Shown here piece after piece: positions 9,688 through 59,475 of a DNA stretch of 64,000 nucleotides (position 1 is the first letter of the stretch; every line of letters starts with the position of its first letter). This DNA is from Ulota crispa (lineage: Eukaryota > Streptophyta > Bryopsida > Orthotrichales > Orthotrichaceae): contig OY987248.1 in NCBI GenBank assembly GCA_963920765.1, positions 17,766,539-17,830,538 of the forward strand, given 5' to 3'. The notes under the pieces were generated by a model. It had not been told where the DNA came from. It saw nothing but the letters and a program-made list of their open reading frames with translations, and made no database searches. The translations under genes and the position numbers were made by a program.

Positions 9688-9691
9688 TTAA

Positions 9692-10636
9692 CCCCTAAAA
9701 GACCAATCATGTCCCTTCAAGGGACAAATGGATTTTGGGCATGTACATATAGCTAATCTATTTTTTGTGATTTTTTAAAACTTTTATAGAAGGTGGGCAA
9801 TTCAAATATCTACGTGGGCATCTAACTTTTTCTTCATTCCGACATTTATTGAAAATGTTATGCATAAACTTTTGAAAAATGGGAAGGCTGGCAGCCCAAA
9901 AAAAATCAAATTTGCATTTTTTTTAAATAAGAATTGGAAATTGTTTCTTTAGATTTTTATATACATGGAAATATTTGAATCATTCAATTTTGATTGATGA
10001 GATGAAAGTTATGAGAAGGTTTAGTTTGCAGGTAGATATGAGACTCCCAAACCTCCATTTCTTTTGCCCCTTGTAAAATTTGCTGCTTTCCTTTTTTGAG
10101 CTCTTTGTGATTTTTTTTTAAACTTTTTTTCCAAGTTTTATTAGACTAAGATTCCTTGGATTTTACCATTTGGATCCAAGGATTTCAAATTTCTCAATTT
10201 TACATAAATTCTCCAACTTTGCCTAGTGTATATGCAAATTTCATGGCCTTATGGCATTGCAGGGTTTTACAAAGTATGATTCACACCTTTGTTTCATTTG
10301 AAAATTCTCCCACATTTACCTAACTTGGTCTTCTACATGGGAAAAATAAACCTCAACTTTGCGTATAGCAATTTTTTTGATATAGGAGCCGTCAAAGGCT
10401 TCTAAAAAATTTGGGCAGCAAGGAAAAGAACTATTTTTTTCACTTTAGATGTCAATATCTCACTCCTCTACTTCTAGAATGAGCTGAAATTTTTCCTACA
10501 AGTACCTCCCATAGTCTAGGGTAAGATCTTATGGTTGAATTTTCAAAAAACTTTTTTTCCTACCTTTCTACTCATTCCCCTAAAAATGACAATTTTCACA
10601 AATTTTCAAAGAAAAAAGGGCTTGGTCCTTTAAGGG
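9692..10636 (+). mobile_element. TTAA element family A, copy 1 (945 bp)
   Basis: Ends read CCCCTAAAAGACCAA and TTGGTCCTTTAAGGG, each directly flanked by TTAA (9688-9691, 10637-10640). This is the reference full-length copy of family A. Its left part contains TCCCTTCAAGGGACA and TTTTGGGCATGTAC; its right part contains GTCAATATCTCACTCCTCTA and AATGACAATTTTCAC. No coding capacity. TTAA duplication with CCC termini is known from piggyBac-type transposons; assignment to that superfamily is inference. Confidence 0.85.
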
Positions 10637-10640
10637 TTAA

Positions 10641-11127
10641 GTAATAAATTGTTCACTGAGGTTTGTAACAAATTGCTTTTAAAGCCAAACTTTTGAAATT
10701 CTATATTTTCCTCACAATAGCTTGTATTCAAAAACCAAATAGTTTTGATATCCTTTGTTATATCTTGGTTTACAAGAAGAAAATTTCTCTGTAAAGTATT
10801 AAAACTTCTAATTGTATGGACAAAGATTGTGTCACCACTTGAAAATCTTACGATCATTGCTGGAAATTGAGTCCAACTCTTGTTGTAATGATTCCTTCAT
10901 TGTGCCAATCTTCCTTCCTTGCTCATGTTGGCACCTGTTACTTGTCCTTCCCAAGTCATGTAATAGTGTTAGCAAAGTGTAGATTGTGTTACCTGTCTTG
11001 CCTAAGGAACCTGTATGTATTATATCAACTTCTTACCAAATTGCCTAGTAGTTTTGAAATTAAGTGCACTAAAAAGGTATACCAAAAACCCAAAACAATA
11101 CAAAAATGTTGTTTGATTCCAGAGGTG
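10641..11127. other. Spacer without recognisable feature
   Basis: Lies between family A and family B elements. The plus-strand frame across it (10867-11190) runs into the element end and has no recognisable domain, so I do not treat it as a gene. Confidence 0.5.
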
Positions 11128-11131
11128 TTAA

Positions 11132-12042
11132 CCCCTAAAGGAACAGATCCCATTTTTAGAAACGTAGCGATTTCGAGTAGGTACCTATGATTGGAGCTTT
11201 TCATATTTTAGGCTGAAATTTTAACAGAATGTGGGCACAAGGTTTATCTTTCATATGCACTAAATTTCATGACATTTGGAATTATGAGTAAAAAGTTATG
11301 GCCCAATATGTTGTTTTTTACGTTTGGCGGGCAGCTTGGGCAAATTTTTGAAAATCAAAATTTTCAAAAACAAAAATTTGAAATTGGTTTAGGAGATTTA
11401 TGTGAATGTAGGAAGCTTTGAATCATTCCATTTGGATCGACAAGATGAAAGTTATGAGAATTTTTAGTTTGCGGGCAGTTATGGATTCACTGCTCTAAAA
11501 TAAACTCTGAAGCCCTTTATTTTACTCAATTTTCATTATTCTAGAAAAAAAACAAAATCTAAGGATGTAGATTGTTTATTACAACATTGTGACCATTGGG
11601 ATTGGCATTTTTCATTTCCATAATTCAATTCTTAACAATTTAGTGTTTTGAATCATTCTCTACTTCTTTTTACTTACTAATTTTTTTCCATATGTTATAT
11701 AATTCCAAATGATTTGAAACTTTTTGGACATGTACTTTACTTAGGTGAAATAAGATATTTAGAGAAGCACCACCCACATGGCCTTTTTTCCTTAGGAATT
11801 TCACCTTTTGAATGGTAACTGCGGTTTTTCACAAGACGTTCTTGAATATTCAAACCATTCTATCTTCCAATCCATGTGGTGGAAAACTCTGAAATTTTTT
11901 CCACATCTTCTAAAACCCTTCTTCTACAAGACCCTACGGTTACATATGCATAAAAATGTTTTTGTTTTCAAATTTGGTTGATGCTCTAAAAATGGCAGTT
12001 TTGAAAAAAAATTGGTGAAAACTTTGCTCGGTCCTTTAGGGG
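11132..12042 (+). mobile_element. TTAA element family B, copy 1 (911 bp)
   Basis: Starts CCCCTAAAGGAACAGA and ends GGTCCTTTAGGGG, with TTAA on both sides (11128-11131, 12043-12046). Matches the 52028-52944 copy over its full length, including GATTGGAGCTTTTCATATTT and GAAGCACCACCCACATGGC. No coding capacity seen. Confidence 0.87.
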
Positions 12043-12046
12043 TTAA

Positions 12047-12890: not shown

Positions 12891-12899
12891 CACATTGAT

Positions 12900-13012
12900 C
12901 CTAATGGGTGAGAATTGGTAAGAATTGGCAAGAACTAATGAGAATTGGCAAAAACTAACAAGAACCGACCAGAATTGACAAGACCTAACTAGTATAGGCA
13001 AGAATTAGCTAG
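12900..13012. repeat. Degenerate AGAATTGGCA minisatellite
   Basis: Repeats of AGAATTGGCA / AGAACTAACA with drift at roughly 10-bp spacing. The minus-strand frame over it is just the repeat translated. Confidence 0.7.
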
Positions 13013-13629: not shown

Positions 13630-14583
13630 CCCCTAAAAGCCCAAGGGGTGTTTTCATGAGAAACTGCCAAAATTTGCATTTTTTCAATATGTTGATGTGA
13701 ATTTTAATTTGAAAATTATTTTTGAAACTTCAACCATACAAAAGGATAGTAAAATCTTTTAGTATTGAGTGCAAAAAATTTCAGCCCATTTGACCACACA
13801 GATTGAAAGATTATAGCATTTGGAATTTATTATAAAAAAAATTTGTCCTTGCCCAAATGGGTCAATAGACTTTAAGCCTCTTTGGAATCTAATTTTTGGT
13901 TGGCATGAATTAAAATTTTTTTTCCGTTGATATCTGAATCTTGTTAGGTACATTGATGAAAAGTTTCAAGAGCAAATTATGGATCTAGCTTACTCTAAAT
14001 TGCCTTGCAATATAAGAGGTTAAATGAATTGGCAATACATTAGTCATTCTTTCATGATTTCTTGTGCAATGAGGGCATCTTTTATTTGAAACCTCAATGG
14101 TGAAAAGTTAGAGACAAATATTTAAAATGTTTGAGAAAAAAATTCAAGAGCTTTGGACTTATATGTTGATAGATAATATTTCCTAAAATTAGAGGAATTT
14201 TTTTTTTTTCTTGAAACTGCCCAAACATTGTTAACAAAGTTTGACTCCCTTTAGAATGTGATGTGAGACTGCAATATATTTAATTTTTTGACAATTGTGC
14301 ACAATGTCTTTTTAGTTACATACTTGCCAAATTTCAAAAGTTGATGAGAGTTTTAGCATAAGATTCTCCAAAGATGCCCAAATTGCCTTAGCTGCCCAAA
14401 TTCTTTTGGGTAGCATAACTTTTGAACCGGACATCCAATTAGGGAAAAAATTATATTTCCACTTGGAGGATACATATTTACACCTTGTGTAACAATTTTG
14501 AGAACATCCAATAAAAATTAACTCCATGTGGTCCTACTAGAGTTCTCAAGTGGGTGTTGAACAAACACTTGGGCCTTTAGGGG
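13630..14583 (+). mobile_element. TTAA element family C, copy 1 (954 bp), inserted in a satellite
   Basis: Starts CCCCTAAAAGCCCAAG and ends CTTGGGCCTTTAGGGG, with TTAA at 13626-13629 and 14584-14587. Matches copies at 48283 and 50643, including GAAACTGCCAAA, CATTAGTCATTCTTTCATGA and a GCTGCCCAAATTC segment near the right end. It splits a 30-bp satellite into two parts, so it is younger than that array. Confidence 0.87.
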
Positions 14584-21270: not shown

Positions 21271-21585
21271 AGGTAGGAGCACCCATAAACGTCAAACGAA
21301 GGGTTTTGAACATGATGACTATTAAGGAACAACTAGCAAATCATAGGATCCTAGTAGGAACAGGAAAAAAAATGAGTTTGCACTTTTGAATGTATTATTT
21401 GGATACCGTGAGAATAAGTTGTGAATGTTTAATAAGCAAACTGCCATTGCACCCATAACCACTTTTAAGATTTCATGTTCACATGTTGTACATCCTTGTC
21501 ATTACATCTATTCACTTCCACAGATTTTCCAAGATTTCAGAGGTGACGGTTATGGGGACATTGACGCTTATGGGTGTTCCTACCT
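21271..21585 (+). mobile_element. MITE family F, copy 2 (315 bp)
   Basis: Ends AGGTAGGAGCACCCATAA and TTATGGGTGTTCCTACCT, with TA on both sides (21269-21270, 21586-21587). Same internal sequence as copies at 3079 and 58441. The best preserved uninterrupted copy. Confidence 0.85.
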
Positions 21586-23091: not shown

Positions 23092-23834
23092 TTCCTAAAG
23101 AACTTTTGTCCCCGGAGGGGACAAATGGGATTTTGGGCATGTACCTATGGCTAGACTACTTTGTATGATTTTTTGAAACTTTTATTGAAGGTGGGGAATT
23201 CAAAAATTTATATGTGTATCTATATTTTTCTTCATTCTTATATTTGACAAAGAAGTTATGCAAGAAGTTATCAAAACTAGGGAATGAGGGACAATTTCGG
23301 CAGCCCGAAAAACTTTTTTAAAACTACACTTTATTTAAATAAAATTTTGAAATTGATTCTTTAGATCTACATATAAGTGAGAAGCTTTGAATCATTCAAT
23401 TTCATTAAATGAGATGAAAGTTATAGGAGTTTTAGTTTGCTGGTAGGTATGGTTTTGAGAGACTCCATACCTACTTGCAAACTAAAACTCATTATAACTT
23501 TCACCTCATTTATTAAAATTGAATGATTCAAAACTTCTCACTTATATGTAGATCTAAAGAACCAATTTCAAAATTTTATTTAAATATACTGCAATTTTTA
23601 AAGAAGTTTTTTGGGCTGTTGAGACTGTCCCTTTGTCCCTAGTTTTATTAGTTTTGATAACTTCTTGCATAACTTCTTTGTCAAATGTTGGAATGAAGAA
23701 AAAAAAAATGCCCATATAGACTTTTGAATTCTCCACCTTCAATAAAAGTTTCAAAAAATCACACAAAGTAGTTTAGCCATAGATACATGCCCAAAATCCC
23801 ATTTGTTCCTCAAGGGGACAACAATCCTTAGGGG
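23092..23834. mobile_element. TTAA family A, end-to-end palindrome (743 bp)
   Basis: The left half of family A is present twice, head to head: GTCCCCGGAGGGGACAAATG...GGTAGGTATGG, a short centre, then the complement through CATTTGTTCCTCAAGGGGAC. The right flank is TTAA (23835-23838); the left flank is TTGA and the left terminus is degraded. The arms would pair into a stem of about 350 bp. Confidence 0.8.
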
Positions 23835-25359: not shown

Positions 25360-25993
25360 CCCCTAAAGGTGCAAGCCTCTTTTTTTGTGTGAAAGTCATT
25401 GAAAATTGTCACTTTTGGGAGAATGAGTAGAAAGGTAGGAAAAATTGTTTTTATTTTGGAAATCCAACCATAGGATCTTGCCCTATACTATGGGAGGTAC
25501 TTGTGGGGGAAAAATCAGCTCATTCTAGATGTAGAGGAGTGAGACATTGACATTTGGAGTGAAAAATCAAGTTTTTTTCCTTGCTACCCAAAAAATTTAG
25601 AAGCCTTCGACCACTCCTATATCAAAGAAAGTGCTCTATTCAAAGTCCCATACCTACCATCAAACTAAAACTTTTCACTCAACAATCAAAATTGAATAAT
25701 TTGAAGCTTCCCACATATATATAAATCTAAAGAACCAATTTCAAATTTTCATTTTTTTTAAATGCAATTTTTTTAAGAGTTTTTGGGCTACTTGCCTTCC
25801 CCGTTTTCTAGAAATTCATACATACTATAACTTCTTCAATAATTGTCAAAATGAAGAAAGAATTAGATGCCCACAATCCCACATAGATCTTTGAATTCTC
25901 CATCTTCAATAGAAGTTTCAAAAAATCACACAAAGCAATTTAGATATAAGGACATGCTCAAAACCCCATTGGGGCCATTTGGGCCTTTATGGG
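25360..25993 (-). mobile_element. TTAA element family A, internally deleted copy (634 bp)
   Basis: Reverse orientation relative to 9692. Ends CCCCTAAAGGTGCAAG and GGGCCTTTATGGG, with TTAA on both sides (25356-25359, 25994-25997). The middle of the element is missing; both ends match family A well. Confidence 0.85.
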
Positions 25994-25997: not shown

Positions 25998-26740
25998 TTG
26001 CAAAGATTTGATTGGATTTTATTTTTTTGGAGAAGCTACACTTTGAAGTTAGCTGCAATGTTCAATTTGACTATCTTCCATCTTACATTCCATTTTTTTT
26101 GGGTGAAAGCTAAACCACAAGCATGCATGTTGTGTATCAGTAAGTATGATGATTAGTGTCGCTAAAGAGCCTGTGACAAGCTGTCACGTTAGAAAAATGG
26201 GTTGCTGAGAATAAGGTGAAGATCTCCTTTGGGCATTGAGACCCTTTTATTGAAATTTCCTTATTGAAAAAAAAACTACACGTGTTTTTGTGCTAATTTC
26301 ACTTAGAAATTTTTATTATACATATTAGAATCTAGTCATTGTTAAATTCTCTTTCATTTATAATTGTTTTTGGTTAATAATTGGATCTAAACATTTTCTT
26401 TGTGTTAGGTGGTAGTTCTTTGGTAGCTGCACTCCATGCTCATTTGTGAAATTGTGATCATAGATTTGGAAGGGGAATTATTAGTTTTGAAACAACAACA
26501 ATAAATACCAAATCATCATAAGTGTTTGTTTCCCAAATTTTAACAAAAAAGTTGCCATTTTACATAACAAGTTATGGGCAGCTCCAAAAATAGGAAATTT
26601 GGTACTTGTACGCATTCAATTACAAATATCTTAACATTGGCAAGGCTTTTTTAGATTTCTTTTTGGCAACATCATGCAAAATCCTTGAAGTTTAAGATCC
26701 TACCATTGCAATTTTTTGTCAATAAGGCTTGGTTTATTAA
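25998..26740. other. Spacer without recognisable feature
   Basis: AT-rich. I see no gene, hairpin or paired termini. Confidence 0.45.
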
Positions 26741-28014: not shown

Positions 28015-28657
28015 CCCCTCACCGCCCATGGTATTTGTGAGTATCTCAAAATTTGCTTGAAAGTGTACAAAATGTTGGCATTTTGATCAATCTTATCAAT
28101 TTTTTCTAAGTGTAACCCTATAAATTCAAAATAGACATGTTATAAATCACATAGGAAAAGAAATCACAACAATATCATTTATGGATTGAAAGATTATAAT
28201 GTTTGATCATGAGGGTGTTAAAATTGAGAAAGTGATTTGAAGTCTTTCAATTTTCATTTTGCATCTCAAACCTAAAATTGAGGGTACCAAAAAAACATGA
28301 GTACATAAAGTATAACATGCATAACCTCAACCAATTTACGACTTCTCAAAATCTATTCTACAATTTTTTTAATTGAATTTTTAATGTGATTTTTCTCTAA
28401 GTTCTAGTGTACTTGAGGCTCATTTCCGAGATCCTTCAACACTAGAAAGTGAAGATTTGCAATGGACACCTTTGCACAAAATTTTGAATAGACAAATTAC
28501 TTTAATTCATTTTCAAAATCAAACTCCTGATGTTGAAACTAGACTTCAATAAGAATTTAAAAATAATAATAATCACTAAAAAAATCTTGAAAAAATGTTG
28601 CAAATCTCTAAATTAAATTCAGAAGGGCCTGGTTTGGACCCCCTGGGCGGTGAGGGA
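28015..28657 (+). mobile_element. TTAA element family E, copy 1 (643 bp)
   Basis: Ends CCCCTCACCGCCCA and TGGGCGGTGAGGG. The left flank is TTAT (one base from TTAA), and the right TTAA (28658-28661) is shared with the next element. Homologous in reverse to 36616-37258, for example across CACAACAATATCATTTATGG and TGAGGGTGTTAAAA. The two copies have identical length. Confidence 0.72.
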
Positions 28658-28661
28658 TTAA

Positions 28662-31322
28662 CCCCTAAAGGACCAAGCCCATTTTTCTGAAAAAATCATT
28701 GAAAATTGCCACTTTTAGAGGAATGAGTAGAAAGGTAGAAAAAAAGTTTTTTGGAAATGCAACCATAGGATCTTGTCTTAGACTATGGGAGATACTTGTG
28801 GAAAAAAATCAGCTCATTTTTAATATAGACAAGTGAGATATTGACATTCAAAGTGTAATAAAAAGTTTTTTTGCTGCCCAAAAATTTCAGAAGCCTTTGA
28901 TTGCTCCAATATCAAAAAAGTTGTTCTACGCAAAGTTGAGGTTTATTTTTTCCATGTAGAAGACCAAGTTAGGTATGTGTAGGAGAATTTTCAAATGAAT
29001 TGGAGGTGTGGATCATACTTTGTAAAATATTGCAATGTTGTAAGACCATGAAATTTGAATATACACTAAGCAAGATTGAAGGATATATGTAAAACTGAGA
29101 AACATGAGTTATTTTGATCCAAATGGTAAAAACCAAGGAATCTTAGTCTGGTACAGCCTCAAAAAATAAAGGTAAAAATAAATAAATTAAAACACCAAAT
29201 TTAACAAGGGGCAAAAGGAATGGAGGTTTGGGAATTTCATACATGCTCGCAAACTAAAACTTCTTACTCATCAATCAAAATTGAATGATTCAAAGCTTTT
29301 CACATATATTAAAATTTAAAGAATCAATTTCCAATTTTTAATTTTTTTAAACGCAATTTTTAAAGAGATTTTTTGAGCTACCCAGATTGCCCGCTGTCGC
29401 GTGGAGATGAGTGCGCCTTAGGAACATGCAGGGTGTTTCGCTACGATTGTGCATTGCTGACTAAAATTATCTTTGGTCTTGATTTTCACTATTCAGATCT
29501 TCAATTTTCATGTCTTCAAGTCTTCATGTTTTAATAAAAATAATAGAAAAAATCACAATAACAAGTTCTAGAAAGGCTGCGACTTTTTTTCTAGTGCCAC
29601 AGATGTCTTAAAGATCCAAATGCTAAGTGTAATAGCAAATTGAAAAGTTGTTCTAATTTTTTAACATTTCTCCAAATTTCAACTCAATCTGAGCTACTGT
29701 CCAAAAGTTATGCGGGTTCAAAGTAGAGGCTTTTCTTCCTTCTTGCAAACTAAACATTGCCTCTATAAACCTCTATAACTTTTGCTCTATACATCATTCA
29801 TGAAAACATGATATCAATTTAAAAAGATGATATCATTGACTACAACTCCTAAAATTTTCATTTGAAAATAAAACTCTGTTCAAAATTCTAGTCAATCAAA
29901 ACATGGATCTCAATTTTGTAGAGAGCACCCAAACCTCCAACTCCTATACACTATAACTTCTTCAATAAAACTCCAAATGGAATAATTGAAGACAATTTGG
30001 AAAGCTATGACATTAAACTATCATTTATAAAATTTTAAAAAGAAAATTTCATACTATCCAAAAGTTGTGTCTCTTCAAATTTTCGGCCTTCTCATAACAA
30101 AAGAGCAACCACCTCCAATCCTTTACACTTCCATAACTTTCTCTTCCAAGTTTCAAATCTCAAGTTTAAAGATTTTCTAGAGAGCTAAGACTAAAATAAA
30201 CACTTTTTTCAAATACTTTTGCAAAATAATATATAAATCATAAGCTATGGCTTGTCAAAGTCTCAACTTTTCTTCATAGTTTGGCTGTTTGACTCCAAAA
30301 TTCAAACACTGATAACTTTTGCATCACAATTTCAAATCAAACTTGCAAACTCATTTTAGAAAGGTTATCACATAAAAAATAACCTCTTCAAATTTCAATT
30401 TAAAATCATGCATGCACAGAAAAATCTCTCACATAAAATTTTTAGAATTTCTCCCCTCTTCTCACCAACACTCATCCACTAACATCCAACAACTAAGGAA
30501 TCTCTCCTCAATTTCAACCATATCTAGGGTAGGGAAGTGGAGCACATCAGCCCATGTCTTTCTCTATCCTAATCTTACCATAGATTCTAAACCTCTTTTT
30601 TTTTTACACATTTCCTATTGATTTCTAAACTATTAGTATTTTTATTCAAACAAAGGCAAAATATATGTGCTTTCCAAAACATCTAAATAAACATATAAAA
30701 ATGATTAAATTACAAAATAAACACCACCGTAAAGTGGTCACGTGCCCTTGCGGGCATATAATAACGTTAAATGATTGTCTTTAGTTGTCAATTTATGGAC
30801 TTGATTGACTAGAGAAGCGGTCGTCTCTGGCCACCTGTTGGGTTGGGTTTGAATCTCATTAGACTCATCAAGCGGTGATGGCGGCCCACGGCTTGGCAAC
30901 TAGTGAGACAGGAAATTGGCCCAGCCAACTCGTTACCTATCCTCCTGAGCTGTGCATGTGATAAGACGATACAGTGCACTGAAATCTATGGCCACTGCGC
31001 TGTCACCAAACCGTGGTTCTCACCACGACCACTTCTTTTGCCACAACTGTTGATTATTGAAATCAACAGAAATATAAATAAATAACAAATATCTACATGA
31101 TGGAGAGATCTCCATCAAGACACGCACCCTCTCTAGTTTTCTGAAATTCATACATACCTTCTTTAATAAATGTCAGAATGAAAAAAAAAATTAAATGTAC
31201 TCGTACATCTTTGAATTCTCCACTAACCTCAAAAATTTCAAAAAAAATCAAAAATTGGTTTAGTCATAAATACATGCCCAAGGTCTATTTGTCCCCCAAA
31301 GGGACACTTGGTCTTTTAGGGA
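28662..31322 (-). mobile_element. TTAA element family A, split by a 1.7-kb insertion
   Basis: Starts CCCCTAAAGGACCAAGCC and ends CTTGGTCTTTTAGGGA, with TTAA at 28658-28661 and 31323-31326. Removing 29395-31122 leaves about 930 bp colinear with the full-length family A copies, in reverse orientation. The host element is therefore older than the insert. Confidence 0.82.
29395..31122 (+). mobile_element. Probable solo LTR or unclassified insertion inside a family A element
   Basis: A 1,728-bp segment interrupts family A homology. It begins TGTCGCGTGG and ends ATCAAGACA, giving TGTC...GACA termini as in LTRs; CGC occurs on both sides, so the target duplication is 3 bp or decayed. A GC-richer portion (30720-31070) precedes AAATATAAATAAATAAC, which could serve as a polyadenylation region. 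No coding region is recognised; the 30903-31085 frame has no domain. Part of the interior (about 29640-30400) looks like a degenerate tandem repeat with recurring AACTTTTG. A DNA transposon is not excluded. Confidence 0.5.
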
Positions 31323-31917: not shown

Positions 31918-32850
31918 CCCCTAAAGGACCAACTGTCCCTTTGCGGGACAAATGGATTTTGGGCATGTACCTACAGTTAATTTATTTTTTGTGATTTTTT
32001 GAAATTTTTATTGAAGGTGGGGAATTCCAAGATCTACGTGGGCATCTAACTTTTTTTTTATTCCGCTAATTATTGAAGAAGTTATGCATGAATTTTTGAA
32101 AAAGAGGGAGGGCAAGCAGCCCAAAAAAAATCAGAATTGCATTTATTAAAAATAAAACTCTGAAGTTGGTTCTTTATATTTATACAAATTGGGTATCTTT
32201 AAATCATCAATTTTGATTGATAAGATAAAAGTTATGAGAAGTTTTAGTTTTCAAGTAGGTATGGGACTCCCAAACCTTCATTCCTTTTGCCCCTTGTAAA
32301 ATTTGTTGCTATCCTTTTTTGAGCTCTTTGTGTATTATTTTTTTGATTTTTTTTTCATGTTGTAGAAGACTAAGATTCTTTGGTTTGCACCATTTGAATC
32401 AAAGTAATTTGAATTTTTTAATTTTAAAAAAATCTCCAATTTTGCCTACTGTATATGCAAATTTCATGGCCTTACAATATTGCAATATTTTACAAAGTAT
32501 GATCCACACCTCCAGTTCATTTGAAAATTCTCCTACATATACCTAATTCGGTCTTCTACATGGAAAAAATAAACCCCAACTTTGCGTAGAGCAACTTTTT
32601 TGATATTGGAACCGTCAAAAGCTTCTAAAAATTTTGGGCAGCACGGAAAAAACTTGTCTTTTTATACTTCAGATGTCAATATCTCACTCCTCTACATCTA
32701 GAATGAGCTAAAAATTTTCCCACAAGTACCTCCCATAGTCTAGGGCAAGACCCAACGATTGAATTTCCAAAAAACTTTTTTTTCTTACCTTTCTACTCAT
32801 TCCCCTAAAAGTAACAATTTTGAGTGATTTTCAAAAAAAAGGAGATGCTC
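31918..32850 (+). mobile_element. TTAA element family A, copy with decayed right end
   Basis: Starts CCCCTAAAGGACCAACTG after TTAA (31914-31917) and matches the 9692 copy through GTAACAATTTTGAGTGATTT. The expected CTTGGTCCTTTAGGGG terminus is not present; the sequence GGAGATGCTCTTACC stands in its place, so the right end is mutated or truncated. Confidence 0.8.
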
Positions 32851-32962
32851 TTACCTTTTGTTCACATTCTCTAGTTTGGAAAACTAAAGTGTGTCAGCTT
32901 TTACACAATAGACCAAGGCCATTTGGGATCCCCAACCATATCCTAATTGTAGCACACCATTA

Positions 32963-34295: not shown

Positions 34296-35017
34296 CCCCT
34301 AAACTACCAAGACTATTTTCTGCCAAAAACCATTTAAAATTGCTCCTATTGTTGCGTTCATCAAAATTTGTGCCCAAAATATTAGATGGTTTTGACCACC
34401 ATTTGCTGATTTTTTTTTGCACTACATACCTTAAAGTTGTAATTTTATCTTACAGGTAATCAAGCTAGACCTTTGTATACCAATTTTTGAGGCAATCAAA
34501 GACGCCAAACACATCCTAAAAATATATTGCAATGCCACTATATGACAAGCTTTGCAAGTACACTATGACATTTTTGAGTGAAGTTTCCCACCACATGTAT
34601 TTAGATATGGAAAATCCAAACGGTGTGTTTGAAGATAAACATTTACTTCAAATGTCAAGAAAAAATGTTCAAAAACTCAAAATCTCTAAATTTTAGAAGC
34701 TCCCAAAGCCAAATTTGACCTCTTGATTGGAAATGAAAGGGGGCAATGACAAAATGTGGCAACCCCTCCTTGCTCCCCCCTCTCCAAAGTCAATATTTTC
34801 TCCCTTGCCTGGGCTGCCCCTCAAATTGCTTTTGGCCAAAAAAAGCCCATAACTTGTGAATTGTGTGGACATAATCACATGATTTTTTGCATCCCAGAAA
34901 CCTTATACATTCCTACACACTCATTAAAAGTTTCAAAAAATCATGTAAAAAACTGAGGTCAAACAAGCCTACACAAAATCCCAAAAGTCCCCCAAACAAA
35001 GTTTGGCCCTTTAGGGG
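34296..35017 (+). mobile_element. TTAA element family H (722 bp)
   Basis: Ends CCCCTAAACTACCAAG and TTTGGCCCTTTAGGGG. Flanks are TTAA (left, shared) and TTTA (right, one base off). Contains GGGCTGCCCC and CCCATAACTTGTGAA internally, similar to the GGGCAGC/AAGTTATG pairing in other families. Only one copy in the window. Confidence 0.75.
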
Positions 35018-35477: not shown

Positions 35478-35481
35478 CTAA

Positions 35482-36372
35482 CCCTAAAGGACCACTTGTC
35501 CCTACTGGGGACAAATGGGATTTTGGGCAGGGTCATGCTACTACAATTTTTGACCAAATTCTATGAATTTCTCTCCAAAGGTAGAGTTTTGCAAGAGTTA
35601 CGTGGGAGAATAATTTTTACTAAATTTTGATTTACAATTCAAAAGTTATACGGGTAGATATGTGAATTTTAGTTGGAGGGGCAGCTTGGGCATGCCATTT
35701 TTTGTTAACTTCTCCCAAGGGGAACCAATGAAGGGATGCTCCTCAATGGAATTTATCCAAAGCAATAGTGCACTAAATAAATACATTATTGTACTCGATA
35801 AATACATTAGCCTATGAATTGCAATATCTACTAGAGGTTTAGTTATTTTTTCCAAATTTCTTTTTTGAGATTGTCAATGAAGCTAAACTCTTCCAATTTA
35901 TTGCTTGGATTTTTATATTCTTTAATATATTTTTAGAAACTTGGTTGCCAAAAAACCTCAATGTAGTGTGAATTTCAAGCACTTGTTTGCAATGCAGGGC
36001 CATAGAGGGTGTGTTCCATGTCTTGGTTGATCACAAAAACTTGTAGAAATATGCCTAACATGATTTAGAGCATGTTAGAAAAATCTCTTTAGCACCTATA
36101 GTGCAAAAAAATTCACCACATGTGGTCAAAGGCACCTGAAAATTTTGTACAAGGAGTAAAAAAACTTTAGGTACTACCTTAGATGATCATATCTCTCAAT
36201 CTGTACAATTGAGCTTCACAATATTTTGATGGTGTGTTCATGAACAACTCTACTACAAGATCCTAAAGTTAGATTTGATCTTTTTTGAAAAAGATTGTTT
36301 TTGGGATCAAATCACTAGAAATGATAGTTTTGGGTGTTTTTTGAGAAAAAAATGTGCTTGATCATGTAGGGG
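35482..36372 (+). mobile_element. TTAA element family I, copy 1 (891 bp)
   Basis: Starts CCCTAAAGGACCACTTG after CTAA (one base from TTAA) and ends CATGTAGGGG before TTAA (36373-36376). Matches 49459-50351 in reverse orientation over its full length, including TAACTTCTCCCAAGGGGAAC and CAATAGTGCACTAAATAA. The right TTAA is shared with the next element. Confidence 0.83.
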
Positions 36373-36376
36373 TTAA

Positions 36377-36611
36377 CCCGTGAGCGCCCAAAGGGCCCAA
36401 ATATGGACTCTTGGTTTAGAAAAATTTCCTTGTTTGACCGTTATAATCTTTTCAATGGTACAGTGAAAGGACATGTTCTTTTCCTTAGAACTCTAGGCCT
36501 ATGTTCACTACCAATTGGTCAATTTTTGTGGATCTCTTTTAGGTGATAGTTTGATTGGAATGAGTTCCAAAGGATTTGGATTTGACTAAACCTATGTTGG
36601 GCACTTAGGGG
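36377..36611 (+). mobile_element. TTAA element family J, short copy (235 bp)
   Basis: Starts CCCGTGAGCGCCCAAAGG directly after a shared TTAA and ends GGGCACTTAGGGG before ATAA. The left part resembles 47309 (CCCCTGAGCACCCTAG). The ATAA is in turn shared with the next element. Confidence 0.6.
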
Positions 36612-36615
36612 ATAA

Positions 36616-37258
36616 TCCCTAAATGCCCAAGCAACCAGATTTGGGTTGTTACAAAATTCTAAAGGTGAGTATAACCTTATCAAACCACTTTTTTTAGTAA
36701 AAAATTTCAGTACAAGTTTGTTTTGAAGTTTATTTTCAGTGTCCAAAATCTGATTTTGAAAATGAAAGTCAATGATTTTTCTACTCAAGATTTTGTACAA
36801 GGGTGTCCACTGCAATCTTGGGTTTTCTAGTGTTGGAAGATCTTGAAAATGAGCCTCAATTACTCTAGAGCTTGGAGAAAAATCTATGTTTGAAATCCAT
36901 CTAAAAACATATAGAAGTATATTTTTAAAACCATAAATTGATTAAAGTTAAACATGTAATGACCTTAAACCTCATATTTTTTTGGTGGCCAACTTTTTAG
37001 ATTTGGCATGTGAAATGAGGAATAGAAGACTTTAAGTCACTTTTGCATTTTTAACACCCTCATGTTCAAACATTATAATCTTTCAAACTATAAGTGATAT
37101 TGTTGTGTTTTCTTTTTCCATGTAATCTCTAACATGTATAGTTTAAATTTCTTAGCTTACAATTCAAAAAAACTTGATGAAGTTTATGAAAAGGTTGGTT
37201 GATTGTTTAGTTTCATAGAAATTTCAAGAAGCTCACACAAGCCTTGGGCATTTAGGGA
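36616..37258 (-). mobile_element. TTAA element family E, copy 2 (643 bp)
   Basis: Ends TCCCTAAATGCCCAAG and CTTGGGCATTTAGGGA, followed by TTAA (37259-37262). Reverse complement of family E at 28015, recognisable by AACACCCTCATGTTCAAACA and TATAAGTGATATTGTTGTG. Confidence 0.75.
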
Positions 37259-39059: not shown

Positions 39060-39842
39060 CCCCTAAAGGACCATTGTCCCTGCGCGGGACAAATGGGATT
39101 TCAGGCATGTACCTATGGTTAACCTACTTTACGTGATTTTTTGAAACTTTTATTGAAGATGGGGAATTCAAAGATTTGTGTGGACATCTAATTTTTCCTT
39201 CATTTCAACAATTATTGAAGAAGTTGTGCATGAATTTTTGAAAACAAGCGAGATTGGGCAGCCAAAAGCTTTTTTAAAAATAATATTTTTCAAAATAAAA
39301 ATATGAAATTGGTTCTTTAGACTTATATATATGTGGGGAGCTTTGAATCATTCAATTTCAATATATGAGTGAAAAGTTTTAGTTTGCGGGCAGGTACAGG
39401 ACTCCCATACCTCCATTCCTTTTGCTTTTGGTACTTTACTTTTTTTTGCTCTTTGTGAATTTTTTTTTTGACTTCTTTTTTTTCTAAGTTGTAGTAGACT
39501 AAGATTCCTTGGTTTTCACCATTTGGATCAACGTAATTCATATTTCTCAATTTCACATAAATCCTCCAATTTTGCCTACTGTATGTGCAAATTTCATGGC
39601 CTTACAGCATTGCAAGATTTTACAAAGTATGATTCACACCTCCAATTCATTTGAAATTTCTCCTACACTTACCTAACTTGGTCTTCTACATGGAAAAAAT
39701 AAACCTCAACTTTGCATAGAGCAATTTTTTTGATTTAGGGGCAATCAAAGGTTTCTGAAATTTTTGGGCCTTTCTAATCATTCCCCCAAAAGTGGCAATT
39801 TTCAGTAACTCTCACTAAAAAAAGGGCTTGGTTCTTTAGGGG
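39060..39842 (+). mobile_element. TTAA element family A, internally deleted copy (783 bp)
   Basis: Ends CCCCTAAAGGACCATTG and CTTGGTTCTTTAGGGG, with TTAA on both sides (39056-39059, 39843-39846). Colinear with 9692 but lacks about 150 bp before the right end (the segment with TCAATATCTCACTCCTCTA). Confidence 0.87.
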
Positions 39843-45989: not shown

Positions 45990-46060
45990 CCCCTGAATCC
46001 CCAAGGCACCAGTATTTGGTGATTTTAACACTAGAATTTGGTACCGTGGGCATTTAAGAG
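45990..46060 (+). mobile_element. Very short TTAA element, family J-like (71 bp)
   Basis: Starts CCCCTGAATCCCCAAGGC and ends GTGGGCATTTAAGAG, with TTAA on both sides (45986-45989, 46061-46064). Probably an extreme internal deletion of a family J element. Confidence 0.6.
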
Positions 46061-48282: not shown

Positions 48283-49239
48283 CCCCTAAAGGACCAAGGG
48301 CGTTTTTGAGAAAAAATCTCAGAAACTGCCAACTTTTATTGCATTGCTCAAAATTGAAATTAAAAATCTGTTTTCTCAATTTCAATCGTACAAAAGTGTG
48401 CAAAACAAATTAAATAGTATGTGCAAAAAAAATTCAGCCCATTTGAACAGGTAGATTGTAAGATTATAATATTTGAAGTGAGAAAAACTACTTTTGTTTA
48501 TTCCTGCAAAACAAGGTCAGCAGACTTTGACTCTTCCTAGAGTAAAATTTTTGTTCTACACAAATTTGAGATTTTTGACCATTCACAAGTATATGATGTT
48601 AGGTTCACTCACAAAAAAATTCAGATGCAAAAGTACAATCTAGCTTGTTCTAAATCATCCTCCAATGCAAAGAGGTTAAGCAAATTGGCAATACATTAGT
48701 CATTCTTTCATGATTTCTAGTGCAATGAGGAAGTGTTTTATTTGAAATCTAAATGGTGAAAGTTAGAGACAAACATTCAAAACATATGAAAAAAAGTTTG
48801 AAGAGCTTCGGGTATATAAATTGAAAGATAATAAGGTTTGAAGTTAGAGGATTTTTTTTCTTTCTAGAAACTGCCCAAACATAGTTAACAAAGTTTGACT
48901 CCCTTCAAAATGAGATGTGAGATCTCAAGCTTCTTTTCTTTTTTTGACAATTGTACATTATATTTTTTTAGTAACATACTTGCCAAATTTCAAAAGTGGA
49001 TGAAAGTTTTAGCATAGGATTCTCAAAAGATTCCCAAACTGCCCAAGCTGCCCTATTTCTTTTGTGCAACATAATTTTTGAACCAAGCATCCGATTGGGG
49101 AAAAAATTACATTTCCACTTAGAAAATACTTATCTGCACCTTATGTAACAATTTTGAGAAAATCAAATAAAAATTAACTCCATACGATCCTACCCAAGTT
49201 CTCAAGTGGCTTTTCAATAGCCACTTGGTCCTTTAGGGG
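48283..49239 (+). mobile_element. TTAA element family C, copy 2 (957 bp)
   Basis: Ends CCCCTAAAGGACCAAGGG and CTTGGTCCTTTAGGGG, with TTAA on both sides (48279-48282, 49240-49243). Closely matches 13630 and 50643. The frames across its left end are not genes. Confidence 0.88.
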
Positions 49240-49458: not shown

Positions 49459-50351
49459 CCCCTGAAGGACCAACCACATATTTTCTCAAAAAACACTCAA
49501 AATTGTCATTTTTTAGTGATTTAATCCCAAAAACAATTTTTTCAAAAAAGATCAAATCTAATCATAGGATTTTGTAGTAGAATCATTCAAGAACATACCA
49601 TGAAAATTTTGTGAAGTTTGATTGTACAGATTGAGAGATATGATCATATGAAGGTAGTACATCAAGTTTTTTTTACCCTTGCCCAAAATTTTCAGGTGTC
49701 TTTGACCATGTGTGGTGAAATTTTTTTGCACTATTGGTGTTGAATAGATTTGTCCAACATGCCCTAAATCATGTTGGGCATATCTCTACAAGTTTTTGTG
49801 ACCAACCAAGACATGGAACACACCCTCCAATCCTCCATGGCCTTGCATTGCAAACATGTGCTTGAAATTCACACAACACTGAATCTTTTGCCAACCATAT
49901 TTTCTAAATAAATATTAAAGAAAATGAAAATCTAAGCGGCAATTGGAAGAATTTAGCTTCATTGACAAAAAAAAGATTGGAAAAAAACTAAATCTCTACT
50001 AGCTATTGCAATTCATAGGTTAATGTATTTATCAAGTACAATAATATAATTATTTAGTACACTATTGCTTTGGAGAGATTCCAATGAAGGGTCATCTCTT
50101 CATTGGTTCCCCTTGGGAGATGTTAACAAAAAATGACATACCTAAATTGCCCCTCCAACTAAAATATACATGTTTGCCCTTATAACTTTTGAACCATAAA
50201 TAAGGATTCAATAAAAAGTGTTCTCCCACGTAACTCTTGCAAAACTCTACCTTTAGAAAAAAAAATTATAAAATTTAATCATAAATTGCAGTAACATGAC
50301 CTTGCCCAAAATCCCATTTATCCCTTGAAGGGACAAAAGGTCCTTTAGGGG
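49459..50351 (-). mobile_element. TTAA element family I, copy 2 (893 bp)
   Basis: Starts CCCCTGAAGGACCAACC after TTAA (49455-49458) and ends AGGTCCTTTAGGGG; TTTTAA follows in place of a clean TTAA. Reverse orientation of 35482 at almost the same length (893 versus 891 bp). Confidence 0.83.
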
Positions 50352-50642: not shown

Positions 50643-51644
50643 CCCCTAATTGACCAATGGTGCTTTTGAGAAAAGATCTCAGAAACTGCCAACTTTTTGT
50701 GCATTGTCCAAAATTGAAATTAAAACCTTTTTCCTCAATTTCAACCGTACAAAAGTGTGCAAAACAAATAAAATAATATGTGCAAAAAAATTCAGCCCAT
50801 TTGACCAGGTGGATTGTAAGATTATAATGTTTGAAGTGCAAAAAACTACTTTTCTTTATTTCTGCAAAACAAGGTCAGCTAACTTTGACCCTTCCTAGAT
50901 TAAATTTTTTGCTTTACACAAATTTGAGCTTTTTGACCCTTCACAAGCATATGATGTTAAGTTCACTCACAAAAAATTTCAGATGCAAAAATACAATTTA
51001 GCTTGTTCAGAATCATCTCCAATGCAAGGAGGTTTAGTGAATTGGCAATACATTAGTCACTCTTTCATGATTTCTAGTGCAATGAGGAAGTCTTTTATTT
51101 GAAATCTGAACGGTATAAAGTTAGAGACAAACATTTGAAACATATGAATTTTTTTTGAAGAGCTTGGGTTTATAAATTGAAAGATAACAAGGCTTGAAGT
51201 TAGAGGATTTTTTTTTTCTTGAAACTGCCCAAACATAGTTAACAAAGTTTGACTCCCTTCAAAATGTGATGTGAGAGCTCTATTTTTTTTTTTTTTTTTT
51301 GACAATTGTACACCATGTTTTTTTAGTAACATACTTGCCAAATTTCAAAAGTGGATGAAAGTTTTAGCATAAGATTCTCCAAAGATGCCCAAATTGCCTA
51401 AGCTGCCCAAACTGCCTAAGCTGCCCAAAGTGCCTAAGCTGCCCAAACTGCCTAAGCTGCCCAATTTCTTTTGGGCAACATAACTTTTGAACCAGGCATC
51501 CAATTGGAGAAACATTACATCTCCACTTAGGGAATACTTATCCGCACTTTGTGTGACAATTTTGAGAACATCCAATAAAAATTAACTCCATATGACCCTA
51601 CTTGAGTTCTCAAGTGGTTGTTGAACAGCCACTTGGTCTTTTAG
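50643..51644 (+). mobile_element. TTAA element family C, copy 3 with internal expansion
   Basis: Starts CCCCTAATTGACCAATGG after TTAA (50639-50642) and matches the other C copies to CACTTGGTCTTTTAG, where it abuts the next element. The junction TTTTAGACCC looks like two back-to-back elements that shared a TTAA and then lost about 6 bp. An 18-bp tandem expansion sits at 51386-51462. Confidence 0.8.
51386..51462 (+). repeat. 18-bp tandem repeat inside family C copy 3
   Basis: CTGCCCAAACTGCCTAAG is repeated about four times. The copies at 13630 and 48283 hold only one to two such units, so the expansion is private to this copy. Confidence 0.85.
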
Positions 51645-51884
51645 ACCCTTAAAGGATGTTGTTGTTTTGTATGTAGACTCTTGTGTTGTATACGGATGGG
51701 GTATTTGGATAGCATATGAATTCCATTGGAGTTGTAAATTTCAAGTCAAGTCATAAACATACTATTGGTCAACTAAGAATTTTTGGGGAATTTTAGGCAT
51801 TTTTCATATAATAGTTTCTTCAAGTACTAAATGATTCTTGTACAAATACAGACAACACTTTGGGTAGGCAACATCCTTTAGGGA
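51645..51884 (+). mobile_element. TTAA element family O, copy 1 (240 bp)
   Basis: Ends ACCCTTAAAGGATGTTG and CAACATCCTTTAGGGA, followed by TTAA (51885-51888). Matches 56470-56707 throughout, including AAGTCATAAACA and TATTGGTCAA. Confidence 0.75.
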
Positions 51885-52027: not shown

Positions 52028-52944
52028 TCCCTAAAGGACCAGACCCCTTTTTAGAAACATAGTGATTTTGGGCAGGTACCCGTGATTGGAGCTTTTCATA
52101 TTTTAGGCTGGAATTTTAACAGAATGTGGGCACAAGGTTTATCTTTGATATGCACTAAATTTCATGACATTTGGAATTATGAGTAAAAAGTTATGGCCCA
52201 ATATGTTGTTTTTTACATTTGTCAGGCAATTTGGGCAGATTTTTAAAAATCACTTTTTTCATAAATAAAATTTTAAATTGGTTTTGGAGATTCATGTGAA
52301 TGTAGGAAGCTTTCAATCATTCTATTTTGATCAATGAGATGAAAGTTATGAGGATGTTTTGTTTGCGGGCAATTATGGATTCTCTACTCTAAAATAAACT
52401 TTGAAGTCCTTTATTTTACTCAATTTTCAACATTTTGGGAAAAAAAAAGAAGAAGAAATGAAAGGATAAAGATTGTTTATGACAACATTATGACCATTGG
52501 GATTGGCATTTTTCATTTCCATAATTAAATTCTTAACAATTTGGTGTTTTGAATCATTCTCTACTTCTTTTTACTTACTCATTTTTTTCCATATGTTATA
52601 TAATTCCAAATGATTTGAAACTTTTTTGACATGCACTTTACTTAGGTGAAATAAGATATTTAGAGAAGCACCACCCACATGGCTTTTTTTCCTCAGGAAT
52701 TTCACCTTCTGAAGGGCAGCTGCCCGAATTTTCACAAGATGTTTTTGAATATTCAAACCATTCTAACTTCCAATCCATGTGGTGGAAAACTCTGAAATTT
52801 TTCCACATCTTCTATAACCATTCTTTTACAAGATCCTATAGTCACATATGCATAAAAATGTTTTTGTTTTCAAATTTGGTTGATGCTCTAAAAATGGCAA
52901 TTTTGAAGAGTTTTTGGTGAAAACTTTGCTTGGTCCTTTAGGGG
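52028..52944 (+). mobile_element. TTAA element family B, copy 2 (917 bp)
   Basis: Ends TCCCTAAAGGACCAGA and TTGGTCCTTTAGGGG, with TTAA on both sides (52024-52027, 52945-52948). Full-length match to 11132-12042. Confidence 0.88.
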
Positions 52945-56465: not shown

Positions 56466-56469
56466 TAAC

Positions 56470-56707
56470 CCATTTGAGATATTGTTGTTTTATATACGCT
56501 CTCCCATGTTGTATATGGATGGAGCACTTGAATAACATATGAATCCAATTAAAGTTGCAGATTTCAAGCCAAGTCATAAACACATTATTGGTCAATTAGG
56601 ACATTTTGGAAAGTTTTTGGCATTTTTCATAAAGCCATTTCTTCCAATACTAAATGCTCCTTGTATGAATACAGCCAACAAATAGGGTAAGCAATATCCT
56701 TAAGGGG
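56470..56707 (+). mobile_element. TTAA element family O, copy 2 (238 bp)
   Basis: Starts CCCATTTGAGATATTGTTG after CTAA and ends CAATATCCTTAAGGGG before TTAA (56708-56711). Full-length match to 51645-51884, more decayed at the left end. Confidence 0.72.
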
Positions 56708-56711
56708 TTAA

Positions 56712-57024
56712 CTTTCTCCCCATGAAGAAATCCAAATCAACTGAGGCACACTCTTACGATTTTGCAGGTACAAAAGAAGGCACAGGCTTCTTCATGGAAG
56801 GAATTCCATTCTGAAAGATTCAATAGTAAACGCACTAGAAACTAAGACACTCAAATACGTTTATAAATAACCACCTTGGACGTATTGCACAACTTTTTCA
56901 TGTGGTTCACCTGGTTGGAGTTTGGAACACTATGGCTATGGCACCATGCACTTAGCAAAAGCATCAACACATGATTGAGTATTGTGGAAAGCATGCACAA
57001 CCACAACCCTAAAAATATGGCCAT
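56712..57024. other. Spacer without recognisable feature
   Basis: No gene or element termini seen. Confidence 0.4.
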
Positions 57025-57028
57025 TTAG

Positions 57029-57984
57029 CCCCTAAAGGCCCAAGCTCATTTTTTTTTGTGAAAATCACTCAAAACTGTCACTTTTGGAGGAGTGAGGAGA
57101 AATGTAAATTTTTCTATTTTTATTTTTTGGAAATCCAACTGTAAGATCTTGCCCTAGACAATGGAAGGTACTTATGCAAAAAAAAGTTAGCTCATTCTAG
57201 ATGGTGAGGAGTGAGATATTCACATAAGAACTGAAAAAAAAAAGTTTTTTTCACTGCTACCCAAAAATTTCAAAGGCCTTTGACAGCTCTTATATCAAAA
57301 AAATTGCTCTATGCAAAGTTGTGGTTTATTTTTCCCATGTAAAAGACCAAGGTAGGTAAATGTGGGAGAATTTTCAAATGAAACAAAGGTGTGAATCATA
57401 CTTTGTAAAATCCTGCAATGCCGTAAGGTCATGAAATTTGCATATACACTAGGCGAATTTGGAGGATTTATGTAAAATTCAAAAACCCAAATTACTTTGA
57501 TCCAAATGGTGAAAACCAAGGAATCTTAGTCTATTACAACTTGGAAAAGAAAAAGCCAAAAAAATATACATAAATTGCTCAAAATAGTAAAGCAAAAAGT
57601 TTTACAAGGGGGAAAAAGAATGGAGGTGTGGGAATCTCATACCTACCCGCAAACTAAAACTTCTCATAACTTTCATCTCATCTATCCTAATTGAATGATT
57701 CAAAGCTTCCCAAATACATAAAAATTTAAAGAACCAATTTCAAAAATTTATTTAAAAAATTTGCAGTTTTTTTTAAATTTTATAGCCTAATTCTCCCTTG
57801 ATTTTTAGTTATTCATGCATAACTTCTTCAATAATTGTCAGAATGGAGAAAAAATTATACTCCTATTTAGGTCTTCACATTCCCCACCTTGAATAAAAAT
57901 TTTAGAAAATCATGCAAAGTAGGATAACCATAGGTATCTGCCCAAAATCCCATTTATCCCCAGAGGACAATGGGCCTTCAGGGG
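57029..57984 (-). mobile_element. TTAA element family A, full-length reverse copy (956 bp)
   Basis: Ends CCCCTAAAGGCCCAAGC and GGGCCTTCAGGGG, flanked by TTAG on both sides. TTAG on both flanks suggests either insertion at a variant TTAG target or parallel mutation. Colinear in reverse with 9692. Confidence 0.83.
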
Positions 57985-57988
57985 TTAG

Positions 57989-58438
57989 ACGTTTCATCAA
58001 TTCACCATGAACCCAATAAATAGATGCAAACAAGAGTTTTCCTTTGCAAAGGAATGGGAAGCTTAATTGTCATTCTTCTCTAATTCTTCAAACACAAACA
58101 TGACTTTGCAGCCGCCAGTGTTCTTCATTCAAGCTATTCAATTAATGGCCTAGGCAATTCTAGGGTTGTCCCCCTTCTGTGTCCTTTGGGATTGTCCAAA
58201 TCTAAAATTTATTTAACTATGAATAAAAGCTTACATAAAAAAAAAAGTGAAAAAATCTTTAAAAGTTATTAGATGTTCATTTGAATTTTGCACTTTTAGA
58301 ATACTATCAAGGTTTGCTTTGCCACAAAGCCTTTCTGCCCCAAACTTCAATTTTACCATGGTTAAAGCTAACAAACATTGTTCATGAAAGCATTATGCAA
58401 TAGAATTGGTGGTCTAAGCAAGAAAAACCAATTTTGGC
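57989..58438. other. Spacer without recognisable feature
   Basis: No gene or paired termini seen. Confidence 0.4.
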
Positions 58439-58440
58439 TA

Positions 58441-59475
58441 AGGTAGGAACACCCATAAGCATTAGTGTCCCCATAACTGTCACCTCTAAAATTTTGGAAA
58501 ATTTGTAGAAGTAAATAGAATTAATTATAAGGATGTACAACATGTGAACATGAAATCTTAATGTTGGTTGTGGGTATAATGGCAGTTTGCTCTTTAACCC
58601 CTAAAGGACCACTTGTCCCTACGGGGGATAAATTGGATTTTGGTTATGTACTTATGGCTAAACTACTTTGTGTAATTTTTTGAAACTTTTATGGAAGATG
58701 GGTAATTCAAAGATCTATGTGGGCATCTAATTTTTTCCTCATTCCAATATTTACTAAAGAAGTTAAAATTGAATTTATGAGAATTTTTGTTTGGCGGGAA
58801 GCCTAAGAACTTTTTAAAAATTGTGTATTTCTAAAATAAAAATTTGAGATTTGTTCTTTACACTTACATATATATGGGAAGCTTTGAATCATTCAATTCT
58901 AATTGATAAGATAAAAGTTATGAGAAGTTTTAGTTTGCAAGGAAGCATAATTTTGAGATTTTCCACACCTATCACCAAACTAAAACTTATCATAACTTTC
59001 ATCTCATTAATTATAATTGAATGATTAAAAGCTTCTAACATATATGTAAGTGTAAAGAACTAACCTCAAATTTTTATTTTAAAAAAATGTAATTTTAAAA
59101 AAAGTTCTTGGGCTGCCTGCTGAACAGATTCTCATAATTTCATTTTTAACTTCTTCAATAAATGTTGGAATGAGGAAAAAATTGAATGCCTCCACAGATC
59201 TTTGAATTACCCATCTTCCATAAAAGTTTCAAAAAATTACACAAAGTAATCTAGCCATAAGTACATACCCAAAATCCCATTTGTCCCATGTAGAGACAAG
59301 TGATCCTTTAGGGGTTAAAATTTCACAACTTATTCTCACAACACCCAAATAATACATTCAAAAGTACAAACTTATTACTTTTCTGTTGCTAACAAGATCC
59401 TATAATTTTCTAAGTGTTTACTAATAGTCATCAAGTTCAAAACCCTTAGACTAACGCTTATGGGTGTTCCTACCT
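58441..59475 (-). mobile_element. MITE family F, copy 3, host of a nested TTAA element
   Basis: Ends AGGTAGGAACACCCATAAGC and GCTTATGGGTGTTCCTACCT, with TA on both sides (58439-58440, 59476-59477). Without the nested 58598-59314 element it is about 315 bp and colinear in reverse with 21271. Confidence 0.87.
58598..59314. mobile_element. TTAA family A, end-to-end palindrome (717 bp), nested in a family F MITE
   Basis: Ends CCCCTAAAGGACCACTTG and CAAGTGATCCTTTAGGGG, with perfect TTAA at 58594-58597 and 59315-59318. Both halves are the left half of family A, facing each other around a centre at about 58955. The host MITE in its other copies has a single TTAA at this exact spot. Confidence 0.9.

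Follow-up and report, generated by a model that had tools for sequence, protein, structure and literature searches.

Probable piggyBac miniatures and their palindromic ends in a 64-kb stretch of the Ulota crispa genome

Trichoplusia ni piggyBac, an element of about 2.5 kb, is a widely used gene-delivery tool. As described in PMC7351741, the insect transposase docks, through a dimer of its cysteine-rich domain (CRD), onto a palindrome that spans bp 17-33 of one end and has its centre at about bp 25, with the right end built otherwise, and such asymmetric piggyBac ends are there termed "enigmatic" by structural biologists. Donors with two left ends (LE/LE) have been engineered: in the experiments presented in PMC11707139, symmetrised LE/LE donors of piggyBat had no activity in cells and short left ends in symmetrised form gave high activity with a piggyBac transposase that carried a second CRD, and PMC7351741 describes piggyBac LE35/LE35 as active in vitro, with some LE/LE activity in cells when a hyperactive enzyme is supplied. 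As for plants, PMC6890710 gives 1,230 piggyBac elements in the fern Ceratopteris, amounting to 0.00% of the assembly, and the open-access papers listed in our searches included none on a plant genome dominated by piggyBac miniatures, or on LE-LE families in nature. Here we consider a stretch of 64 kb on contig C7 of the assembly of the land plant Ulota crispa (274.8 Mb in total), called the window throughout, which is crowded with short elements flanked by TTAA. We think it very likely that these are non-autonomous piggyBac miniatures (miniature inverted-repeat transposable elements, MITEs), moved in trans by the transposases of 5.0-5.7 kb elements that lie elsewhere in the genome.

Miniature elements and their TTAA target

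The layout of the elements is simple, in that they start with TTAA-CCCCTAAAGGACCA and finish with the complement of CCCCTAAAGGACCA. With up to three mismatches allowed, CCCCTAAAGGACCA turns up 39 times in the window where 3.3 would be expected, and no shuffle out of 100 reaches 39; across the genome TTAA followed by this tip (up to two mismatches over 18 bases) is found 33,777 times, as against 12 times for the control, the same pattern read backwards. A preliminary description of the window had reported TTAA-flanked elements with these ends and had proposed a genome-wide search for them, and both counts bear it out. At the genome-wide stringency the window holds 26 ends and the genome on average 7.9 per 64 kb, so that the window is about 3.3 times as rich in ends as the genome mean. 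Pairing de novo, with TTAA+CC ends and a 14-bp inverted repeat, yielded 18 pairs in the window, several of which are cross-pairings between neighbours, and 0, 0, 0, 0 and 1 pairs in five block shuffles.

All eight examples that had been singled out for an intact TTAA on each side do indeed have one, at the coordinates of Table 1. The accompanying estimate of about 26 copies in about 10 families is right for the ends, which number 26, and too high for the copies, which we count as about 20 plus fragments, and for the families, of which we find six or seven by sequence. The elements cover 26.8% of the window, which agrees with the earlier "over a quarter", or about 24% once the 1.7 kb within 28662-31322 that matches no other element is excluded; scaling the coverage per end would place such elements near 8% of the genome, as a rough figure. 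Their lengths run from about 71 to 1,020 bp, the interrupted E5 excepted. Pairwise divergence by the Kimura two-parameter (K2P) measure, taken over 11 copies, is 0.098 in family B, 0.117-0.313 in C, 0.165 in D and 0.173-0.290 in A, and therefore speaks for several old waves and no fresh burst among these copies.

What happens at the target can be read from empty sites, for which we joined the two flanks of an element with one TTAA and aligned the product to 318 kb of sequence. Among 27 flank pairs, only those of E14 and of L046, which bears a transposase, gave clear empty sites, with a weak one (54 bp) for E6. The target of E14 is a dispersed repeat (3116-3354, 21308-21547, 58478-59438), and the empty sites of L046 lie in L007 and L001; a lack of TTAA duplication at such sites, which the preliminary description had named as evidence that would overturn it, is not what we see, since the paralogous sites of both elements hold a single TTAA. 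These sites show that TTAA was duplicated on insertion of one miniature, E14, and of one element with a transposase, L046. At 28015-31322, at 35481-37258 and in L040, adjoining elements form chains with a single TTAA between them, which is in keeping with this, because a flanking TTAA is expected to be hit again.

Transposase-bearing elements elsewhere in the genome

None of the genome matches listed for PF13843, the piggyBac transposase domain, falls in the window, and 35 transposase fragments from this genome, compared with the window at E 0.01, found no transposase there either. Elsewhere the picture is quite different. The genome search with PF13843, in which 116 of 527 candidates were scored and whose count is thus a lower bound, gave at least 120 matches (best E 1.3e-73), some elements giving two. 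Around these matches we took 14 longer stretches, L039-L051 and L074, and in eight of them both ends frame the transposase, next to TTAA or a sequence one letter off it: the flanks are TTAA/TTAA in five, and one side reads TCAA in L040, TTGA in L050 and TTCA in L074. A strict end-pair rule is satisfied by 4 of 12 loci, compared with 0.017 per shuffled locus. The closest pair among 30 transposase loci compared, L051 1267-6285 (contig C3) and L074 1001-6018 (C10), is 90.5% identical from TTAA to TTAA with no alignment outside, and the ends are therefore fixed independently. The claim that an autonomous partner is absent accordingly holds for the window and fails for the genome, where the partner class is present, though in the stretches examined not with exactly these tips. 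Our own earlier result, that 30 transposase loci with 1.5-kb flanks had no ends, was overturned by the longer stretches; it was an artefact, because the elements are 5.0-5.7 kb long with the domain in the middle.

The protein is recognisably that of piggyBac. For example, a frame of 476 aa in L041 matches the solved piggyBac transposase (6x67/6x68) at E 4e-20 and piggyBat (9c0f) at 6e-17, with its first two catalytic aspartates aligned to 6x67. The TVDE, CDNxF-like and GVDxxDQ contexts of the DDD triad are all found in L040 and L049 and partially in others, and a C-terminal, zinc-type cysteine pattern of the cross-brace kind is present in 11 of 36 loci, with none in 20 shuffles and none on the opposite strand. 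The tips of these elements vary (CCCCTAAATGCCTA at both ends of L045, with CCCCTTGAGGACTA, CCCATTAAGGATCA, CCCTCTAACATCCA, CCCCTCATCGCCAA, CCCCTCAACACCCC and CCCTTTAACGACTA as others), and TTAA plus the L045 tip, at up to two mismatches, has 14,154 genomic matches against 7 in the control, a set that overlaps the CCCCTAAAGGACCA set. As DNA the transposases are much diverged: at E 1e-10 only 16 of 435 pairs from 30 loci give a same-strand alignment, in some cases through flanking repeats. L040 and L046 are closely related at the protein level.

Taken together, the TTAA duplication, the inverted CC[C/T] tips, PF13843 within ends of the same class, the match to 6x67/6x68, the DDD triad, the C-terminal cysteine-rich domain and a palindrome on one end of all seven transposase elements compared uphold the affiliation with piggyBac that had been proposed, and the elements of the window are short, present in many copies and accompanied by no transposase found there, as MITEs are.

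Apart from this, in three cases two transposase matches whose scores are the same or nearly so lie in opposite orientation (C7:18203169/18223004, C2:36765124/36779670 and C10:676128/785346); perhaps these are inverted segmental duplications.

Palindromic ends, left-left elements and the number of sources

We laid out 76 ends from the window plus the loci, with members of one family included, so that the ends are not independent. One type of end carries a short palindrome just inside the tip, and its letters change with the family: GTCCC..GGGAC in A and D, AGTGGCT..AGCCACT in C, AGCCCA..TGGGCT in L008, CAACC..GGTTG in E8, CACCA..TGGTG in the 71-bp element and GAGGACAC..GTGTCCTC in L043. Stems of at least 6 bp at bp 13-42 occur in 18 of the 76 ends, as against 1.8 in shuffles (largest 7 in 200), and reach 9 bp without a mismatch; further in there is no excess (3 versus 2.0). 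In nine representatives the dyad stands at bp 25, with a mean pairing of 0.87 and 0.44 for the next best position, but the nine were picked for showing a palindrome. A fairer basis is given by the seven transposase elements, whose ends were chosen by tip alone and from which L074 was left out as a copy. They carry the bp-25 palindrome on exactly one end in 7/7 cases (a count that stays at 4 or below in 5,000 shuffles; of the remaining dyads from bp 22 to 65, none reaches 3 of 7), at a threshold set after the result on the nine. Eight window elements have it too: E3, E5, E7, E8, E10, E11, E14 and 28015-28657. The other end offers a T-tract and, at bp 39-42 in 11 of the 76 ends, the motif CAAAATTGCCACTTTTAG (up to four mismatches; shuffled mean 0.02), which is carried by families A, B and D and has 2,991 genome matches at up to two mismatches, as against 11. 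By analogy, a palindrome in the same position as the insect piggyBac site is the strongest sign of mechanism, and would be a binding site here as well.

Some elements do without the second kind of end altogether. E14, the degraded element at 23093-23834 and an element in L005 have the palindromic end twice, once on each side, and each aligns to its own reverse, at 84.5%, 85.1% and 86.9%, respectively, and CAAAATTGCCACTTTTAG, searched within four mismatches, is present in none of the three. E14 has a large family: the best 40 of 6,619 genome candidates, E14 included, match at essentially full length in both orientations, the other 39 at 86-89% identity. Among the matches listed for its left end (100 exact) there are 14 convergent pairs, 608-744 bp apart, and among the 100 listed for the family C left end, inspected by eye, there is no such pair. 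Left-left elements have so spread as such, E14 being the one with TTAA duplication and examined empty sites, so that, in the E14 lineage at least, a pair of left ends was enough for transposition.

In the mechanism that we would propose, the tip, CCCCTAAAGGACCA or a variant of it, is where the transposase cuts, and TTAA is where it places the element; its C-terminal cysteine-rich domain, as a dimer, would read the bp-25 palindrome of the left end, and the right end would offer the T-tract plus, in families A, B and D, the motif near bp 40. The families would then probably have been mobilised by several lineages of transposase, each having a palindrome to itself. Such an end code would have two parts, a common tip for cutting and a lineage palindrome that names the transposase, with the left end as the complete end and LE-LE elements spreading without a right end; this is a tentative reading, to which we give slightly less than an even chance.

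Several observations stand on the other side, against the affiliation as well as the end code. No complete end pair was found in 6 of the 14 stretches (one end only in L039 and L041; none accepted in L042, L044, L047 and L049), all three catalytic contexts are present by pattern in only 2 of 13, and at least one stop interrupts 110 of the 120 transposase matches, introns not taken into account, which makes present activity doubtful. The transposase copy with the same exact CCCCTAAAGGACCA ends that the preliminary description had suggested looking for was not found among the 14 stretches, nor was one with the family A palindrome (GTCCC). The first 100 exact left-end matches, compared by eye with the transposase matches in search of a partner for families A-D, had none within 6 kb among the matches listed, which is a weak test; families A-D give no match to four transposase-bearing elements of the kind seen in the L045-like fragments, but show by eye a resemblance in end modules. 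As for the palindrome, 4 of the 18 long stems are A/T-rich and in the other end type, and that of L045 is off the dyad; at the threshold used for the transposase elements, only 8 of 16 paired window elements have the bp-25 dyad, it is missing from families B and F, and in family A it wanders from 23 to 27. When all 76 ends are scored together, bp 15 even slightly beats bp 25 as the dyad (0.428 versus 0.408), because the GGAC of the tip pairs with the GTCC of family A. The symmetry of the E14 family, too, departs from the asymmetric ends of piggyBac.

The preliminary description supposed one source, and this we would give up: the transposases are many and diverse, and because the tips are nearly common and the palindromes differ by family, we argue for several lineages, in which, to judge from the letters, several transposases probably share the tip but read different palindromes. 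The "one terminal code" that it saw across lineages survives as the tip common to A-D and not for the inner palindromes, which are family-specific; similarly, its "unrelated cargoes" are distinct in their internal sequences, but modules of about 45-60 bp at the ends recur in several families. It might still be that one piggyBac lineage, now lost or decayed, moved all the families and that the palindromes are by-products of family history, as the same tip in A to D, the T-end motif common to A, B and D and the failure to find an exact partner among the 14 stretches would suggest. We consider this unlikely, if worth keeping in view, given the large transposase diversity and given that the stems, although they differ by family, keep their pairing, for the most part about one common dyad; moreover, the related L040 and L046 carry similar palindromes (TTGACCA..TGGTCGA and TTGGCCA..TGGTCAA), unlike those of L043, L045 and L051.

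Perfect stems of up to 9 bp could also extrude or be transcribed, and the palindromes might thus act independently as hairpins of DNA or RNA, in replication or silencing, rather than being transposase sites. This seems improbable to us, as the constraint lies in the distance from the tip and applies to a single end, as would suit a site bound within a synaptic complex, and as the insect piggyBac CRD site, in the description of PMC7351741, is at the same place. Lastly, another TTAA-targeting superfamily, Kolobok or Sola3, could have moved the miniatures with the piggyBac copies as bystanders: Kolobok also duplicates TTAA according to PMC9587614, and the exact piggyBac partner was not found, no search aimed at Kolobok or Sola transposases having been made. 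The termini that PMC9587614 gives for Kolobok are 5'-RR, however, and those here are 5'-CCC; the transposase element L045 has its abundant TTAA-CCCCTAAATGCCTA at both ends, and the palindrome is placed where that of piggyBac is, all of which leaves this alternative very improbable indeed.

Catalogue of the window and comparison with described systems

Table 1. Elements and related features of the window, with positions and families by self-comparison, followed by the framed transposase elements from elsewhere in the genome
Feature	Positions	Strand	Family	Remarks
E1	9692..10636	+	A	left palindromic end, right T-end; TTAA both sides
E2	11132..12042	+	B	TTAA both sides; 89.9% identity to E12
E3	13630..14583	+	C	TTAA both sides
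Degraded symmetric element	23093..23834	+		left end on each side; homologous to E14 in both orientations; no clear TTAA on left, TTAA on right
E4	25360..25993	+	A	deleted form; TTAA both sides
L045-like fragments adjoining E4	26010..26597	-		78% over 333 bp, 88% over 42 bp; resemble both end regions of transposase-bearing L045; tips not recognisable
E8-related element	28015..28657	+	E	ends CCCCTCACCGCCCA / TCCCTCACCGCCCA; flanks TTAT/TTAA; TTAA at 28658-28661 common with E5
E5	28662..31322	-	A	broken by ~1.7 kb of other sequence
Family A copy	31918..32858	+	A	decayed right tip
E6	34296..35017	+	F	left TTAA, right TTTA
E7	35481..36372	+	D	84% to E11
235-bp element	36377..36611	+		TTAA/ATAA flanks shared with neighbours E7, E8; chain of three
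E8	36616..37258	+	E	tips TCCCTAAATGCCCA; palindrome CAACC..GGTTG
E9	39060..39842	+	A	TTAA both sides
71-bp micro-element	45990..46060	+		TTAA both sides; palindrome CACCA..TGGTG; homologue L051 1025-1095
E10	48283..49239	+	C	TTAA both sides; both tips exact
E11	49459..50351	-	D	
Family C copy	50643..51660	+	C	
E12	52028..52944	+	B	TTAA both sides
E13	57029..57984	-	A	TTAG both sides
E14	58598..59314	+	A (halves)	717 bp, symmetric; palindromic left end twice; 343-bp arms; TTAA both sides
Paralogous empty site of E14	21308..21547	-		single TTAA; 83% over 240 bp
Second paralogous empty site of E14	3116..3354	-		single TTAA; 80% over 240 bp
L040				framed transposase element, 5,648 bp
L043				framed transposase element, 5,222 bp
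L045				framed transposase element, 5,738 bp
L046				framed transposase element, 5,548 bp
L048				framed element, 5,646 bp; chosen by eye from looser scan
L050				framed element, 5,550 bp; chosen by eye from looser scan
L051				framed transposase element, 5,019 bp
L074				second copy of the L051 family, framed by both ends

The 71-bp element and its homologue in L051, which has ATAA on one side, consist of two tips plus palindromic sequence, a very short unit for a transposon. A search for more elements below 150 bp gave 4 matches against 0-4 in controls, and for this reason only these two are retained. A pairing of position 45990 with 48085 as a 2.1-kb element was given up in favour of the 71-bp element. 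Among other features of the window, minisatellite-like arrays of similar AAGCTTCTAA-type units lie 5 kb apart at 3656-3935 and 9028-9306, and the only frame of at least 150 aa (5943-6470, minus strand, 175 aa) looks by eye like a gypsy-type reverse transcriptase. In the assembly at large, 19 small contigs were sampled at 201 bases each, and in 15 of them the G+C content is 44-58%, compared with 33% in the window; these 15 (C13-C17, C20, C22, C25, C32, C36, C40, C50, C70, C100 and C130) are possibly sequence of associated organisms. Contig C157 (112,500 bp; 27% G+C in a 6-kb piece) has tRNAs, a plastid family of 3' untranslated regions and frames that we take, from their protein sequences, to be atpA, ndhH, ndhA and ycf1-like, and its gene content means that the assembly includes a land-plant plastid. 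A fungal origin of the DNA, to which the gypsy-like frame had seemed to point, was discarded on the strength of this contig, and eleven large contigs of 41.4 to 6.3 Mb in an assembly of 275 Mb would suit a moss.

What makes the system so attractive is that piggyBac is here a major class of miniature elements in a land plant, and that its thousands of natural end variants, parallel transposase lineages and left-left family amount to a dataset on the features that an end requires. Among the systems closest to it is Trichoplusia ni piggyBac as PMC7351741 describes it, with the same TTAA target, CCC tip, DDD transposase and C-terminal cysteine-rich domain, a bp-25 palindrome on one end and a differently built right end; the differences are the 5.0-5.7 kb elements, other letters in tip and palindrome, many parallel lineages and natural LE-LE elements. 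The piggyBat of Myotis lucifugus likewise has asymmetric ends, with an imperfect palindrome on the left end only in the account of PMC11707139, but LE/LE donors were inactive in the cells used there, whereas here a natural LE-LE family has multiplied. If true, this spread contrasts with the behaviour of both engineered piggyBac and piggyBat in cells. The coral CMITEs, as presented in PMC2872659, resemble our miniatures in TTAA duplication, CC[C/T]T tips, short length and lack of coding capacity, and one of their families shares its tip with a transposase-bearing piggyBac-like element. In Ulota crispa, by contrast, the host is a land plant, the ends run to tens of thousands and an LE-LE family is among them, and the internal sequences differ while the end modules are shared, which is the reverse of what PMC2872659 describes for the coral elements.

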